Shown: one piece after another, positions 40,694-47,944 of the stretch
How the letters are laid out: every line of letters starts with the position of its first letter
Numbering within the stretch: position 1 is the stretch's first letter
Assembly: GCA_036271555.1 (NCBI GenBank)
Contig: DATBAK010000026.1
Span: forward strand, 1-64,000
Direction of reading: 5' to 3'
Length of the DNA stretch: 64,000 bases
Source: Acidimicrobiia bacterium
GTDB taxonomy: Bacteria; Actinomycetota; Acidimicrobiia; IMCC26256; PALSA-610
The notes under the pieces: model-generated
What the model was told of the DNA's origin: nothing
Databases searched by the model: none
Seen by the model: the letters and a program-made list of their open reading frames with translations, nothing else
Program-made: the position numbers and the translations under genes

Positions 40694-41131
40694 CTACTGC
40701 GCAGACTCGGCCGGCGCCAGCGCGAACAGCAGTCGCGCCCGACAGGTCACCGTGCCGTCGACGGTTGCCTCGCCGCGTCCCCAACCACCACGCGCACTCA
40801 GGCGCTCCATCTCGACGCGCAGCACGAGCTCGTCACCGGGCCGCACGACGCGGCGGAAGCGCACGTCCTCGACGCCGCCGAACAGGGGCAGCGAACCCGC
40901 GTAGCGAGCGTCCGAGAGGATCGCGATGCCGCCGGTCTGGGCGAGCGCCTCGAGCTGGAGCACGCCCGGAACGACCGGATTGCCCGGGAAGTGGCCGGTC
41001 AGGAAGTCCTCGTCCCCGGTGATGCGCCACCGAGCCACGGCCAGGGAACCGGGCACCAGCTCGTCGACTTCGTCCACGAACCGGAACGGCGGCCGATGAG
41101 GAAGGAGTGCGATCGGGTCGGAGGTCGCCAT
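40694..41131 (-). CDS. fabZ: 3-hydroxyacyl-[acyl-carrier-protein] dehydratase FabZ
   Basis: 145 residues from the ATG at 41131, with GGAAGG upstream. A hot-dog fold with the FabZ signature GHFPGNPVVPGVLQLEALAQ: catalytic His47 and Glu61. It dehydrates 3-hydroxyacyl-ACP in each elongation cycle. The gene is divergent from fabD, and the 160-bp gap between them probably holds promoters for both. It supplies the dehydratase step missing from the plus-strand FAS-II genes. Confidence 0.92.
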   Translation of the reverse strand: MATSDPIALLPHRPPFRFVDEVDELVPGSLAVARWRITGDEDFLTGHFPGNPVVPGVLQLEALAQTGGIAILSDARYAGSLPLFGGVEDVRFRRVVRPGDELVLRVEMERLSARGGWGRGEATVDGTVTCRARLLFALAPAESAQ

Positions 41132-41291
41132 GGGCGGCCTTCCTACCACCGCACCCGCCGCGATCGTCGCCTTCGCGCTCCGTTCACGAAGCGGTGACGC
41201 ATCGGTCATCGAGGGTGGGGACGGTTGTAACCCAGACCCGCCGCAACGGGTCCGAGCCCTTACCCGTCCAGCCCCCGGAGGTCGTCAGCTC

Positions 41292-42224
41292 GTGCGCGTC
41301 GCAGTGGTGTTCCCCGGCCAGGGAACCCAAGCCCCCGCGATGGGCCGCCCGTGGAAGGGCGAGCCTTCGTGGTCAGTGGTCGACCGCGCCGAGGACGCGC
41401 TCGGCGAGCCGCTCGCTCCCCTCCTCCTCGACGCCGACGCCGACGACCTCGGACGCACCCGTAACTCGCAGCTGTCGGTACTCCTCACCTCGCTCATGGC
41501 GTGGGACGCGCTCGGCCCTCGCCTCGCCGCCGCGCCCGATGTCGAGATCGTCGCCTTCGCCGGTCACTCACTCGGCCAGGTGACGGCCCTCGTCGCGGCG
41601 GGCACCATCTCGCTCGACGACGGCATCCGCTTCGCCGCTCGCCGCGCCGACCTCACCCAGGCCGCGGCCGACGCGCACCCGGGCCGCATGGCCGCGCTCC
41701 TCGGCGCGACCGAGGAGCAGGCGAACGAAGCGTGCGCCGCGGCACCCGACGCGTGCTGGCTCGCGAACGACAACGCGCCCGGACAGATCGTGATCGCGGG
41801 CACGCCCGACGGCGTCGACATCGCGAGCGCGCGCGCGAAAGACCTCGGCGTCAAGCGCGCGATGTCGCTGCCGGTAGGCGGCGCCTTTCACACGCCTCTC
41901 ATGCACGAGGCGGTCGCGGGCCTCGAGTCCGCGCTCTCCGAACTGTCACTCCACGCGCCCTCGGCACCCATCGTCTCGAACGCCGACGCGACCGCGTACA
42001 ACGACGCCGACGGCTGGCGCGAACGCCTCGCCGTGCACGTCACTCGCCCCGTCCGCTGGCGCGCCTCGATGCAAGCGCTGCAGGCCCTGGATGCGAGCAT
42101 GTTCCTCGAAGTCGGGCACGGATCGATGATCGCCGGCGTTGCGAAACGCACGGTTCCCGACGTTCCCGTGTTCGGCATCGCCGTCCCCGATGCCGTCGAC
42201 ACCCTCGGAGGTGCCCGTTCATGA
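41292..42224 (+). CDS. fabD: Malonyl-CoA:ACP transacylase FabD
   Basis: 310 residues from a GTG at 41292 (VRVAVVFPGQGTQ). Catalytic Ser93 in GHSLGQ and His200 in GGAFHTP, with the N-terminal PGQGTQ oxyanion loop. It loads malonyl groups onto ACP. GGAGG lies about 10 bp upstream. The stop overlaps the next small gene (ATGA). It opens the plus-strand FAS-II operon. Confidence 0.95.
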   Translation: MRVAVVFPGQGTQAPAMGRPWKGEPSWSVVDRAEDALGEPLAPLLLDADADDLGRTRNSQLSVLLTSLMAWDALGPRLAAAPDVEIVAFAGHSLGQVTALVAAGTISLDDGIRFAARRADLTQAAADAHPGRMAALLGATEEQANEACAAAPDACWLANDNAPGQIVIAGTPDGVDIASARAKDLGVKRAMSLPVGGAFHTPLMHEAVAGLESALSELSLHAPSAPIVSNADATAYNDADGWRERLAVHVTRPVRWRASMQALQALDASMFLEVGHGSMIAGVAKRTVPDVPVFGIAVPDAVDTLGGARS

Positions 42225-42475
42225 GGTCGACCCATCACGGCGAGCTGCTCGACGTCCCCGAGCGCATGATCGTTGCGCCGTCGGTCGGCGTCTTCCGCCC
42301 GACCGTGGCGCCCGACATCGACGTCGACGCGGGCGAGGAGATCGGTGTCGTCGAAGGACCGGGCGTGTCGATGCCGGTGTGCAGTCCCTTCCGCGGACGG
42401 CTGTGCGGCATGCTCGCCCACCCCGGTGAGCGGCTGCGCGAAGGCCAGCCGATCGCGTGGCTGCGGGTCGCGTGA
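42221..42475 (+). CDS. Biotinyl/lipoyl-like small protein lacking the modified lysine
   Basis: 84 residues from the ATG at 42221 (ATGA overlap with fabD; its stop overlaps fabH). Residues about 15-84 follow the half-barrel pattern of biotin carboxyl carrier proteins: VAPSVGVFRP, then DVDAGEEIGVVEGPGVSMPV and CSPFRGRLCGMLAHPGERLR. Where BCCP has EAMKM, this has EGPGV: Gly replaces the biotinylated Lys, so it cannot carry biotin. Translational coupling on both sides suggests a dedicated role in FAS-II, perhaps structural. That is inference. Confidence 0.7.
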   Translation: MRSTHHGELLDVPERMIVAPSVGVFRPTVAPDIDVDAGEEIGVVEGPGVSMPVCSPFRGRLCGMLAHPGERLREGQPIAWLRVA

Positions 42476-43461
42476 CGGTCGCCGGCGCGACGATCGTCGG
42501 TTACGGAGTCGCCGTCCCCGAGGGCCGCCTCACCAATCAAGACCTCGAAGCGCGCGTCGAGACTTCGGACGCGTGGATCGTCGAGCGCACCGGCATTCGC
42601 GAGCGTCGCATCGCCGGTCCCGACGAGAGCACCGCGACGCTCGGTACCACCGCGGCCGCGGCGGCGATCAAGCACGCGGGACTCACGCCGTCCGACATCG
42701 ACCTCATGATCGTGGCGACGCAATCGCCCGAGCAGCCGATGCCGCACACCGGCGCGTTCATCGGTGAAGCGCTCGGATTGCGGTGCGGATCGTTCGACCT
42801 CTCCGCCGCGTGCAGCGGATTCGTGTACGAGCTCGTCGTCGGCGCGTCGATGCTCGCGACCGGCAGCCGCAACGTGCTGCTCGTCGGCGCCGAGACCGTC
42901 TCGCGACTGATGGATCCCGAGGACCGCACGACGACGATCCTCTTCGGCGACGCCGCGGGCGCCGCGGTGATCGCCCCCGCGACCGGCGACGGCGGCCTGC
43001 TCGCGTGGGACCTCGGCTGCGACGGCTCCGCCGCGGGCCTGCTCGAGATCCCCGCCGGCGGATCGCGACTGCGACCGTCGATCGAGACCGTCAAGGCCGG
43101 CAAGCACTACATGTACATGGCCGGCCAAGAGGTGTTCCGGCGCGCGGTGCGCGTCGTCGTCGAATCGAGCGCGGCGACGCTCGAGAAGGCGGGCATCACC
43201 GCGGACGACGTCGACTGGTTCGTGCCCCACCAGGCGAACCTCCGCATCATCGAGGCCGCGTCGGGTCGTGTCGGCATTCCGATGGAGCGCACGATCGTGA
43301 ACATCGAGCGCTACGGCAACACGTCGTCGGCGTCGATCCCGCTCGCGTTGTTCGAAGCCGTAGACGACGGCCGTGTCCAGCCCGGCGACCTCGTGTTGAT
43401 GTGCGGATTCGGCGCGGGCATGACCTGGGCGAGCGCACTGATGCGCTGGGGTGATCGATGA
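42472..43461 (+). CDS. fabH: 3-oxoacyl-ACP synthase III FabH
   Basis: 329 residues from a GTG at 42472 overlapping the previous stop (GTGA). Thiolase fold with the FabH triad Cys114 (SAACSGF), His253 (PHQAN) and Asn283 (YGNTSSAS). It starts fatty-acid chains by condensing an acyl-CoA with malonyl-ACP. The primer (acetyl or branched) cannot be told from sequence alone. The stop overlaps fabG. Confidence 0.95.
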   Translation: MTVAGATIVGYGVAVPEGRLTNQDLEARVETSDAWIVERTGIRERRIAGPDESTATLGTTAAAAAIKHAGLTPSDIDLMIVATQSPEQPMPHTGAFIGEALGLRCGSFDLSAACSGFVYELVVGASMLATGSRNVLLVGAETVSRLMDPEDRTTTILFGDAAGAAVIAPATGDGGLLAWDLGCDGSAAGLLEIPAGGSRLRPSIETVKAGKHYMYMAGQEVFRRAVRVVVESSAATLEKAGITADDVDWFVPHQANLRIIEAASGRVGIPMERTIVNIERYGNTSSASIPLALFEAVDDGRVQPGDLVLMCGFGAGMTWASALMRWGDR

Positions 43462-44295: not shown

Positions 44296-44538
44296 ATGGA
44301 GCGCACCGTGGCACTCGACGCCATTCGTGACGTTGCCGTCGAGGTGCTCAGTGTCGAGCCCGACTCCGTCACGGAGGCGGCTCGTTTCAAGGAAGATCTC
44401 GACGCCGACAGCCTCGACCTCGTCGAGCTCGTGATGGGTCTCGAGGAGCGCTTCGACATCGAAGTGCCCGAGGAGGACCTCGAAGGCGTCACCACCGTCG
44501 GTCACGCGGTCGACATGGTGCTCGCCAAGGTCGGGTGA
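44296..44538 (+). CDS. acpP: Acyl carrier protein
   Basis: 80 residues, acidic, with the phosphopantetheine site DADSLDLVELV (Ser39). CAGGAGG lies just upstream of the ATG at 44296, a stronger site than its neighbours have, as fits an abundant protein. It carries the growing chain for the operon's enzymes. Seven bp separate it from fabF. Confidence 0.97.
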   Translation: MERTVALDAIRDVAVEVLSVEPDSVTEAARFKEDLDADSLDLVELVMGLEERFDIEVPEEDLEGVTTVGHAVDMVLAKVG

Positions 44539-44545
44539 CCCACCG

Positions 44546-45796
44546 ATGAGCGCCGCCGTCGATCACCGGGGAAGAGCGCGCGTCGCGGTCACCGGGCTGG
44601 GTGTGAAGACGCCCGCCGGCTGCGACGTCGACTCGTTCTGGAGCGCGCTCACTGCCGGCGTCTCCGCCGCCGCGCCGCTCACGCTGCTCGACACCGCCGA
44701 CCTCGCGGTGAAGTTCGGCTGCGAGGTGCGCGACTTCGACGTCACCGCGTACGTGCCGCCGAAAGACGCGCGCCGGCTCGACCGTTCGTCGCAGCTCGGC
44801 GTTGCGGCCGCGGCCGACGCGCTCGCCGACGCCGGCGATCTCGCGACCGACCCCGCGCGCTGCGGCGTCGTCATGGGTGGCGGCGTCGGTGGCCTCACGA
44901 CGCTCGAGGAGCAGGTCATCATCCGCCACGACAAGGGCTCGACTCGCGTCAGCCCCTTGCTCGTGCCGATGATGATGGTGAACGCGACGGCCGGGAACAT
45001 CGCGATGCGCTTCGGCTGGACCGGGCCGAACCTCTGTGTCGCGACCGCGTGCGCCGCGAGCGCGAACGCGATCGGCGAGGCCGCGCGCATGATCCGCTAC
45101 GGCGAGGCCGACGTCGTGCTCGCGGGCGGTGCGGAGTGCTCGATCACCCCGACCGCGATGGGCGCGTTCGCACGTATGACCGCGCTGAGCACGCGCAACG
45201 ACGATCCTCTCCGCGCGTCGCGGCCGTTCGACGCCGATCGGGACGGCTTCGTGATGGGTGAGGGCGCGGCCGCGCTCGTACTCGAGTCGTGGGACCACGC
45301 GGTCGCGCGCGGCGCGCGCATCTACGGCGAGATCGTCGGCTACGGCCGGAACTCCGACGCCTACCACATCACTGCGCCGTCGCCCGGTGGTGAGGGCGCG
45401 GCTGCGTGCATGCAGCTCGCGCTCGACGACGCGGGACTCGCACCGTCCGACATCGCGCACATCAACGCGCACGGCACGTCGACGCCGCTCAACGACGCGG
45501 CCGAGGCCGAGGCGGTGCGCAAGGTGTTCGGCGACACTTCCCCACCGACGACGTCGACGAAGGGCGTCACCGGTCACCTGATCGGCGCGGCCGGCGCGAC
45601 CGAGGCGGTCGCGTGCCTGATCGCGATGGCCGAGGGTCTCGTGCCGCCGACCGCGAACTTCGAACAGCTCGGCGACGACATCCATCTCGACATCGTCGCG
45701 GGCAAGCCGCGCGCCGTCGCCGCGGGTCCTGCACTGTCGAACTCGTTCGGATTCGGCGGCCACAACGCGAGCCTGATCATCGCCCCGGCGTCGTGA
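44546..45796 (+). CDS. fabF: 3-oxoacyl-ACP synthase II FabF
   Basis: 416 residues. Beta-ketoacyl synthase fold with catalytic Cys169 (VATACAAS), His309 (NAHGTSTP) and His344 (VTGHLIGAAG). It elongates acyl-ACP with malonyl-ACP. Only one elongating KAS is present, unlike the kasA-kasB pair of mycobacteria. Its stop overlaps the carboxyltransferase gene (GTGA). Confidence 0.96.
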   Translation: MSAAVDHRGRARVAVTGLGVKTPAGCDVDSFWSALTAGVSAAAPLTLLDTADLAVKFGCEVRDFDVTAYVPPKDARRLDRSSQLGVAAAADALADAGDLATDPARCGVVMGGGVGGLTTLEEQVIIRHDKGSTRVSPLLVPMMMVNATAGNIAMRFGWTGPNLCVATACAASANAIGEAARMIRYGEADVVLAGGAECSITPTAMGAFARMTALSTRNDDPLRASRPFDADRDGFVMGEGAAALVLESWDHAVARGARIYGEIVGYGRNSDAYHITAPSPGGEGAAACMQLALDDAGLAPSDIAHINAHGTSTPLNDAAEAEAVRKVFGDTSPPTTSTKGVTGHLIGAAGATEAVACLIAMAEGLVPPTANFEQLGDDIHLDIVAGKPRAVAAGPALSNSFGFGGHNASLIIAPAS

Positions 45797-47163
45797 CCGT
45801 CGCGGTCGCGATCGGCGCGCAGGTCGACGCCGCCGCCACGGCGGGGATGCGGGAGATCGACGGACGTCCCGTCTCGTGGTTCCGCGTCGCGGGCGGCAAG
45901 CACCACGGCGCGATCGGGGCGGCCGGTGCGGGGACGATCGCGCGGGCGGTCACGCTCGGCCTCGAGTCGCACCTACCGATCGTCGGTGTGCTCGACACGT
46001 CCGGTGCGGAGCTTCGCGAGAACGTCGCCGCGCTCCACGGTTGGGGCCGCATCGCACGCGCGTTCGCGCACGCGTCGGGCGTGGTGCCGACCGTGCTCAC
46101 GGTCATCGGGCCGTGCGTCTCCGGTCCCGCGCTGCTGCTCGGGCTCGCCGATCTCGTCGTGATGACCGGCGACGCGTTCGCGTACGTGAGCGGTCCCGAC
46201 TCCGTCGTCGAGTTCACGGGCATCTCGGTGGCGCGCGGCGCCCTCGGCGGCGCGGCGATGCACGGCACGCGCAGCGGCGTCGCATCGCTCGTCGTCGACA
46301 CGCCGGAAGAAGCCGAGCAGGCGGTCGCCGCGCTGCTCTCGTACCTTCCGAGCCATCATCTCGAGGATCCGCCGCTCGTGGCCGGCGACGATGTCGCGGC
46401 CCGGCCGTGCGAGCAGGCGGCGCGGGTCGTGCCCGCGGCGCCGAACCGGCCCTACGACGTCCGCGTCGTCGTCGAGGACGTGCTCGACGCCGACACCCTC
46501 TTGGAGCTGCGCGCCGACTACGCGGCGAACATGGTGACCGCGCTCGGACGTCTCGGTGGGCGGGCGGTCGGCGTCGTCGCGAACCAGCCGTCGCACCGCG
46601 CGGGCACGCTCGACATCGAGGCGTCGCGCAAGGCGGCGCGCTTCGTCGAGTTCTGCGACTCCTTCAACCTGCCGATCCTCACCTTCGTCGACACGCCCGG
46701 CTTCGAGCCCGGGCGCGACCTCGAATGGCGCGGGATGATCCGCCACGGCGCGGAGCTCGTGCACGCATATTGCGCGGCGACCGTGCCGCGCGTCTGCATC
46801 GTGCTGCGCAAGGCGTACGGCGGCGCGTACATCGTCATGGACTCGCGTGGGGTCGGGAACGACGTCTGTCTCGCGTGGCCGGGCGCAGAGATCGCGGTGA
46901 TGGGCGGGTCCGCGGCGGTGCAGATCCTGCACGGCCGGCGGCTGCGCACCCTGTCCGACGAGGAGCGCGTGACGAGCGAGCGCGAGCTCGTCGACGAATA
47001 CGGGACCGCCTTCTCGAACCCGTACCGCGCCGCGGAGCGCGGGTACGTCGACGCCGTGATCGAGCCGTCCGAGACCCGCAGCGCGCTGCTGCGCACGCTG
47101 GAAGTACTCGCAACGAAGCGCGACACCCGACGGCCGCGGCGACACTCCAACGGGCCGCTCTGA
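45793..47163 (+). CDS. Acyl-CoA carboxylase carboxyltransferase (AccD6-like)
   Basis: 456 residues from a GTG at 45793 overlapping fabF. Two crotonase-fold halves: an N-terminal half with GPCVSGPALLLGLADLVVM and YVSGPDSVVEFTG, and a C-terminal half with VDTPGFEPGRDLEWRGMIRH and KAYGGAYIVMDSRGVGNDV. It should make malonyl-CoA (or methylmalonyl-CoA) with a biotinylated alpha subunit encoded elsewhere. The chain is about 50-70 residues shorter at the N-terminus than typical PccB/AccD5 proteins. Its position after fabF parallels mycobacterial accD6. Confidence 0.9.
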   Translation: MTVAVAIGAQVDAAATAGMREIDGRPVSWFRVAGGKHHGAIGAAGAGTIARAVTLGLESHLPIVGVLDTSGAELRENVAALHGWGRIARAFAHASGVVPTVLTVIGPCVSGPALLLGLADLVVMTGDAFAYVSGPDSVVEFTGISVARGALGGAAMHGTRSGVASLVVDTPEEAEQAVAALLSYLPSHHLEDPPLVAGDDVAARPCEQAARVVPAAPNRPYDVRVVVEDVLDADTLLELRADYAANMVTALGRLGGRAVGVVANQPSHRAGTLDIEASRKAARFVEFCDSFNLPILTFVDTPGFEPGRDLEWRGMIRHGAELVHAYCAATVPRVCIVLRKAYGGAYIVMDSRGVGNDVCLAWPGAEIAVMGGSAAVQILHGRRLRTLSDEERVTSERELVDEYGTAFSNPYRAAERGYVDAVIEPSETRSALLRTLEVLATKRDTRRPRRHSNGPL

Positions 47164-47188: not shown

Positions 47189-47944
47189 ATGCTGCTGAAG
47201 GACCGACGCATTCTCGTCACGGGCGTGCTCAACACCGACTCGATCGGGTTCGGCGTCGCGCGGCGCGCGCAGGAGGAAGGCGCGGAGGTCGTGCTGACGT
47301 CGTTCGGGCGCGCGATGAGCCTCACGCAGCGCGCGGCCCGCCGGCTGCCGGAGACGGTCGAGATCGTCGAGCTCGACGTGTCGAACGACGACGATCTCGC
47401 GTCGCTCGCGGCGCGCGTCGGCGGCCGCCTCGACGGCGTGCTGCACGCGATCGCGTTTGCACCGGAGTCGTGTCTCGGCGGCGGATTTCTCACCGCGCCG
47501 TGGAGCGACGTCTCGATCGCGCTGCAGGTGTCGGCGTATTCGCTGAAGGCGTTGGCGGTCGCGTGCCGGCCGCTACTCAGCGGCGGTGGGTCGATCGTGG
47601 GCCTCGACTTCGACGCCACGCAGGCGTGGCCCGTGTACGACTGGATGGGCGTCGCCAAGGCCGCGTTCGAGTCGACTGCGCGGTACCTCGCGCGCGACTT
47701 CGGCGCCGACGGCATCCGCGTGAACCTCGTCGCCGCAGGCCCGATCCGCACGATCGCGGCGAAGAGCATCCCGGGCTTCGACCAGTTCGAAAACGTGTGG
47801 GCGACGCGTGCACCACTCGGCTGGAACGTGAAGGACAACGAGCCCGTCGCGCGCGCGTGCGTCGCGCTGCTCTCGGATCTGTTCCCGATGACGACGGGCG
47901 AGATCGTTCACGTCGATGGCGGCTTCCACGCCGTCGGCGCGTAA
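47189..47944 (+). CDS. fabI: Enoyl-ACP reductase FabI (InhA-like)
   Basis: 251 residues. NADH site LVTGVLNTDSIGFGVA, catalytic Tyr150 and Lys157 in YDWMGVAKAAFES (the Tyr-x6-Lys pattern of FabI/InhA), and AGPIRTIAAKSIPGF of the substrate loop. It performs the last reduction of the elongation cycle. As the last gene of the FAS-II operon it completes a self-contained pathway. The gene ends 20 bp before a strong hairpin. Confidence 0.95.
   Translation: MLLKDRRILVTGVLNTDSIGFGVARRAQEEGAEVVLTSFGRAMSLTQRAARRLPETVEIVELDVSNDDDLASLAARVGGRLDGVLHAIAFAPESCLGGGFLTAPWSDVSIALQVSAYSLKALAVACRPLLSGGGSIVGLDFDATQAWPVYDWMGVAKAAFESTARYLARDFGADGIRVNLVAAGPIRTIAAKSIPGFDQFENVWATRAPLGWNVKDNEPVARACVALLSDLFPMTTGEIVHVDGGFHAVGA

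Follow-up and report, generated by a model that had tools for sequence, protein, structure and literature searches.

The proteins nearest in kind to the one described here are plant BADC and actinobacterial AccE. BADC is a lysine-free relative of the biotin carrier BCCP that acts as an assembly glue or, in an earlier view, as an inhibitor; its mature form has been studied as the BADC3 construct A55-Q263 (PMC11926652). The carboxylases of actinobacteria commonly depend on a small partner protein, AccE, that is encoded beside the carboxyltransferase (CT) (PMC13118682). Here, we describe a lysine-free biotinyl-fold protein of Acidimicrobiia, hereafter X, which fails a defining feature of each of these kinds. 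Comparison of sequences and structure prediction establish its fold, the loss of the biotin lysine in every homologue, selection on the domain, its fusion to the malonyl-CoA:ACP transacylase FabD, and its co-loss and co-occurrence with one type of CT. Our literature search, which covered few subscription journals, found no report of a biotinyl domain linked to FabD.

A biotinyl barrel lacking the biotin lysine

The window, i.e., the whole stretch of 64,000 nucleotides that was analyzed, contains a fatty acid synthesis operon with the order fabD-X-fabH-fabG-acpP-fabF-CT-fabI and a divergent FabZ/FabA-like gene upstream. The product of the X gene (ORF 42221-42475, plus strand) is MRSTHHGELLDVPERMIVAPSVGVFRPTVAPDIDVDAGEEIGVVEGPGVSMPVCSPFRGRLCGMLAHPGERLREGQPIAWLRVA, 84 residues in length. 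The features are as follows, in window coordinates:

40694..41209, minus strand: FabZ/FabA-like dehydratase, divergent from the operon and a conserved neighbor
41292..42224, plus strand: fabD, for malonyl-CoA:ACP transacylase, with an approximate start codon; most relatives outside the source genome's taxonomic order have it fused to X
42221..42475, plus strand: X, lysine-free biotinyl-fold protein of 84 amino acids; a separate gene in the source genome's order
42359..42364, plus strand: X codons for the P47-G48 beta-turn, in the position of the BCCP Met-Lys(biotin), from the AF2 model and alignment
42425..42472, plus strand: X C-terminal motif GER(L/V)R.GQP(V/I)AWLR, residues 69-84, from conservation (Trp80 in 106/106)
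42472..43461, plus strand: fabH, with a GTG start overlapping the X stop codon
43458..44204, plus strand: fabG
44296..44538, plus strand: acpP, acyl carrier protein
44546..45796, plus strand: fabF
45793..47163, plus strand: "type A" acyl-CoA carboxylase carboxyltransferase (CT), co-lost with X in relatives
47189..47944, plus strand: fabI-type enoyl-ACP reductase

The fabD stop codon and the X start codon overlap as ATGA (42221-42224), and the X stop codon (42473-42475) overlaps the fabH GTG start at 42472, so both of the stop-start overlaps reported by an initial sequence-only reading of this DNA are present. The synteny of X is kept in more than 60 loci, which rules out a chance ORF. The dN/dS values of X lie between about 0.04 and 0.2 in most pairs, similar to those of FabD. 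Judged by these values, X is under purifying selection comparable with that on FabD, and it is therefore neither a chance nor a decaying gene; a pseudogene was discarded on the same ground.

X shares with BCCP (AccB, PF00364) the same barrel, the GxF and SxxxG half-motifs, and a hairpin in the same place. The AF2 model is a confident biotinyl/lipoyl barrel (mean pLDDT of 92.3) for which the top Foldseek matches are biotin carriers, with an rmsd of 1.0 Å to E. coli BCCP (1bdo) over 76 columns; likewise, a PDB profile search with X aligned E. coli BCCP across the entire domain (E value of 4e-5). In contrast to BCCP, the window X stays below the curated cut-off of the Pfam Biotin_lipoyl model (19.3 versus 22.1 bits), while at E ≤ 1 this model matches 40 of the 44 members of the X family. 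The modeled hairpin consists of strands 40-46 and 49-54, and its P47-G48 turn takes the position of the BCCP Met-Lys, so that the X tip reads EGPGV where BCCP has EAMKM. The biotin column in the X alignment was placed by means of an E. coli BCCP row. Lysine occupies this column in none of the 111 distinct homologous X domains aligned; 59 have Gly, 17 have another residue, and 35 have a gap because their tip loop is 4 residues shorter. A local loss of the lysine is thus ruled out. The sequence-only reading had noticed the BCCP-like pattern with EGPGV and proposed a repurposed carrier fold, and both proposals are borne out by the model, the structure matches and the conservation of the lysine-free state: none of the homologues retains the lysine of MKM, and the predicted fold is that of biotinyl domains. 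Gly, whose invariance at this site that reading had proposed to check, is not invariant, whereas the absence of Lys is universal. The source genome encodes two other domains that keep EAMKM and ESMKM; the organism therefore has normal biotin carriers.

Three side observations concern the same site. In one clade (L103, L105, L106 and L181), the tip reads GKGHS, with a Lys one residue before the lost biotin site. An X-like lysine-free domain at L177 (4525-5010) lies near efp-nusB-pyrR, a neighborhood that in some bacteria is the site of accB-accC, and is perhaps an accB remnant. Another X-like domain (L147 in genome G418; E value of about 1e-13) lies in an open frame of 521 residues with no fab genes nearby.

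The best-conserved positions of X are G7, E8, E14, R15, P20, G23, F25, G59, G69, P77 and Trp80 (106/106), of which E14-R15 and the invariant Trp80 are absent from E. coli BCCP. In biotinyl domains, the termini and the last strand lie at the end opposite the tip. Taken with this topology, the conserved positions place the conserved face of X away from the old active tip. The former biotin tip is in fact the least conserved part of X, and its loop is deleted in 35 of the 111 domains, in fused forms.

Fusion of X to FabD

Nearly all loci that were read in the source genome's order have X as a gene of its own, placed between fabD and fabH, as the sequence-only reading had described it; across most of the class, however, X is a C-terminal FabD domain attached through a flexible linker. 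In the named or complete cases (L064, L125 and L128), X follows FabD in frame with no intervening stop codon, and in the further loci such in-frame fusions account for 39 of 60. A class-wide profile search agrees with this, since most strong X matches outside the source order fall in open frames 390-530 residues long, which matches the length of FabD plus X. The model of the L125 fusion consists of FabD, a disordered linker (residues 329-342) and the X barrel. In the fusions, the enzyme domain is recognized by fabD models (TIGR00128, ACP S-malonyltransferase), while the FabD models TIGR00128 and PF00698 stop before the additional C-terminal domain, and no NCBIfam model scored above its cut-off on the X domain. 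The fusion, which the earlier reading had missed, identifies FabD as the primary partner of X and explains why many FabD proteins of the class are about 100 residues too long. The association also extends beyond the class, where X follows FabD or is fused to it (L139-L146, L148-L151 and L154-L158).

One MAG (0813_bin7) carries a second FabD-X fusion (L128, 5984-7240) in which the GHSxG serine motif is lost (GQGAAAY) and the catalytic-histidine motif reads AAYNTPLM in place of GAFHTPLM. This protein appears to be a dead FabD that retains X.

Co-inheritance of X with a type A carboxyltransferase

The CT searches returned a well-separated group, here type A, which formed a single clade of 36 sequences in the tree (support of 100/100). 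The type A CTs, including the one in the window (45793-47163), differ from ordinary PccB-type CTs in two ways: roughly 70 N-terminal residues (the KLTARERI..LLD.GSF region) are lacking, and DTSGAE-like residues stand at the site of the GARIQEG-like motif found in ordinary PccB-type proteins.

Four loci of the source order, L251 (G007), L252 (G023), L253 (G038) and L254 (G049), have an operon that is intact except that both X and CT are missing, leaving fabD-fabH-fabG-acpP-fabF-fabI. From L255, L256 and L258, X, CT and fabH are all missing, and two further X-less loci (L257 and L259) run off their contigs. The absence of fabH from the operon in several relatives without X and CT (L255-L259) is an observation in its own right, as is the lack of a close FabH match in five genomes of X-less relatives (G030, G034, G044, G047 and G051). 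With the exception of G049, no type A CT was found elsewhere in the genomes with X-less operons. On a FabF+FabG tree, X changed at least four times, with CT changing the same way; since four independent losses are too few, the phylogeny-aware sign test (p = 0.125) could not reach significance.

Within the class Acidimicrobiia, our sample of 148 genomes, most of them MAGs, contained 45 with both X (presence taken as a profile match at E ≤ 1e-15) and a type A CT, 1 with X only, 2 with CT only and 100 with neither, a co-occurrence with a Fisher p value of 2e-34 when relatedness is ignored. The class is taken to be Acidimicrobiia on the ground that the close homologues bearing names come from Acidimicrobiia, Acidimicrobiales or Iamiaceae. 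Both CT-only genomes (G014 and G041) have truncated contigs, and these two, along with G013 and G057, were rejected as cases of CT without X because their contigs break off within the operon without reaching the position of X. The sole X-only genome, G003 (85% complete), in which no type A CT was found, groups in the tree as the sister of G007, where both are gone, as though the loss of CT had come first. In G049, a MAG with about 5% contamination, the fab operon lacks X and CT, and on a different contig, in a stretch free of fab genes, X stands immediately before a type A CT. An X gene adjoins a CT gene at L110 and at L152, in the latter directly before a more distant CT; elsewhere the two are four genes apart or unlinked. 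Collectively, the co-loss, the co-occurrence across the class and the lone X-CT pair of G049 lend support to the link with the AccD-like protein of the operon that the sequence-only reading had proposed.

The clades with fused FabD-X encode their CT at a separate place in the genome. At three loci of such genomes (L201, L085 and L206), a stand-alone type A CT is found between a LysR-type regulator and citrate synthase, a setting that suggests regulation by acetyl-CoA supply. Beyond the class, X occurs together with FabD but without a type A CT, so that this CT is not the sole possible partner; there, either another carboxylase may partner X or the FabD link may be older.

A possible tether between FabD and its carboxylase

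X is fused to FabD and co-inherited with the CT that makes the substrate of FabD, and these two links together point to an adaptor between them. We therefore favor, with a probability of about 0.5, a non-biotinylated BCCP-fold adaptor linking FabD with the carboxylase to which the type A CT belongs. X would be an autonomous barrel, translationally coupled to FabD in the source order and joined to its C terminus by a linker in most of the class, that holds FabD near the carboxylase so that fresh malonyl-CoA could be passed straight to ACP. Binding would probably use the termini-side face (E8, E14-R15, R71, W80 and R82) and not the former biotin tip, and the lysine-free barrel would serve as a binding module, as in plant BADC. 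Contact between X and an unfused FabD, contact with the carboxylase, the subunit touched and channelling are all what we infer from these patterns.

BADC and X are both BCCP homologues without the biotinylation motif, and BADC, likewise non-catalytic, is linked to the carboxylase of fatty acid synthesis. They differ in that BADC has a long N-terminal part, whereas X is only an 84-residue barrel with a 13-residue N terminus, and in that X is a partner or domain of FabD in Actinomycetota with a PccB-type CT. Moreover, BADC binds biotin carboxylase and BCCP and helps assemble the carboxylase, whereas the link of X to a carboxylase is one of genomic association. AccE/PccE epsilon proteins resemble X as small non-catalytic proteins paired with one particular CT and sometimes encoded beside it; unlike them, X has a biotinyl fold and is usually encoded beside fabD. 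That X is AccE under another name is ruled out, as none of the 44 family members matched PF13822 at E ≤ 1, and all 20 above-cut-off PF13822 matches in these genomes adjoin type B CTs, none a type A CT. By analogy, X may fill the place of AccE for the type A CT and also tie this CT to FabD.

Part of this analogy could be the whole story. X might serve the type A carboxylase as an accessory "glue" subunit that acts in assembly or activation like AccE or BADC and sits at FabD for co-expression only, a reading that we consider unlikely but the strongest of the alternatives. It accommodates the co-loss of X with CT, the existence of X-CT gene pairs and the restriction of AccE to type B CTs, and plants are known to use lysine-free relatives of BCCP as assembly subunits. 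It does not explain why it is fabD, and not CT, that X almost always adjoins or is fused to, nor why FabD-X fusions exist in genomes without a type A CT.

Conversely, the X-FabD link that spans several classes, whether or not a type A CT is present, could mean that X serves FabD only, through stability, ACP docking or a dimer contact, and that CT is co-lost as operon parts are replaced. We regard this as improbable. The X-less relatives keep a FabD that is still 56-66% identical, next to FabH or, where fabH is missing, directly before FabG, with no compensating gene; the deletion in L251-L254 removes two separated genes and no other; and the X-CT pair of G049 has no adjoining fabD.

Between the scaffold and the inhibitor that the sequence-only reading had left side by side, our data favor the former. 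A decoy that takes the place of BCCP on biotin carboxylase or CT, thereby throttling malonyl-CoA synthesis, would suit a BCCP-like fold without lysine and recalls the first model for plant BADC. It is highly improbable, however, given that the tip that would enter the active site is the part least conserved and missing from fused forms, and that an inhibitor should go first, yet X outlives CT in G003. The proposed docking by mimicry of the BCCP tip is unsupported for the same reason of tip variability and deletion. Finally, we give almost no credence to X still being a carrier whose modification lies at a different residue or involves a different cofactor, as the nearby Lys is confined to the GKGHS clade, no tip or near-tip residue is conserved family-wide and the tip loop is absent from 35 of 111 domains.

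Returning to the adaptor, its full extension, to which we assign slightly less than even odds, is that a lysine-free BCCP-fold tether joins the carboxylase and FabD in bacteria whose FAS-II enzymes are separate, that malonyl-CoA is handed over within one complex and that fusion of FabD and X is the rule for most of the class. X is a conserved domain that lies under the thresholds of family models, occurs as a covalent part of FabD across a large bacterial group and vanishes with a specific CT. The finding bears on whether malonyl-CoA passes directly from acetyl-CoA carboxylase to FabD in separate-enzyme FAS-II bacteria. X and its partners offer a concrete protein pair for testing this, together with a counterpart, in bacteria, of plant BADC, for which glue and inhibitor are both still argued as roles.
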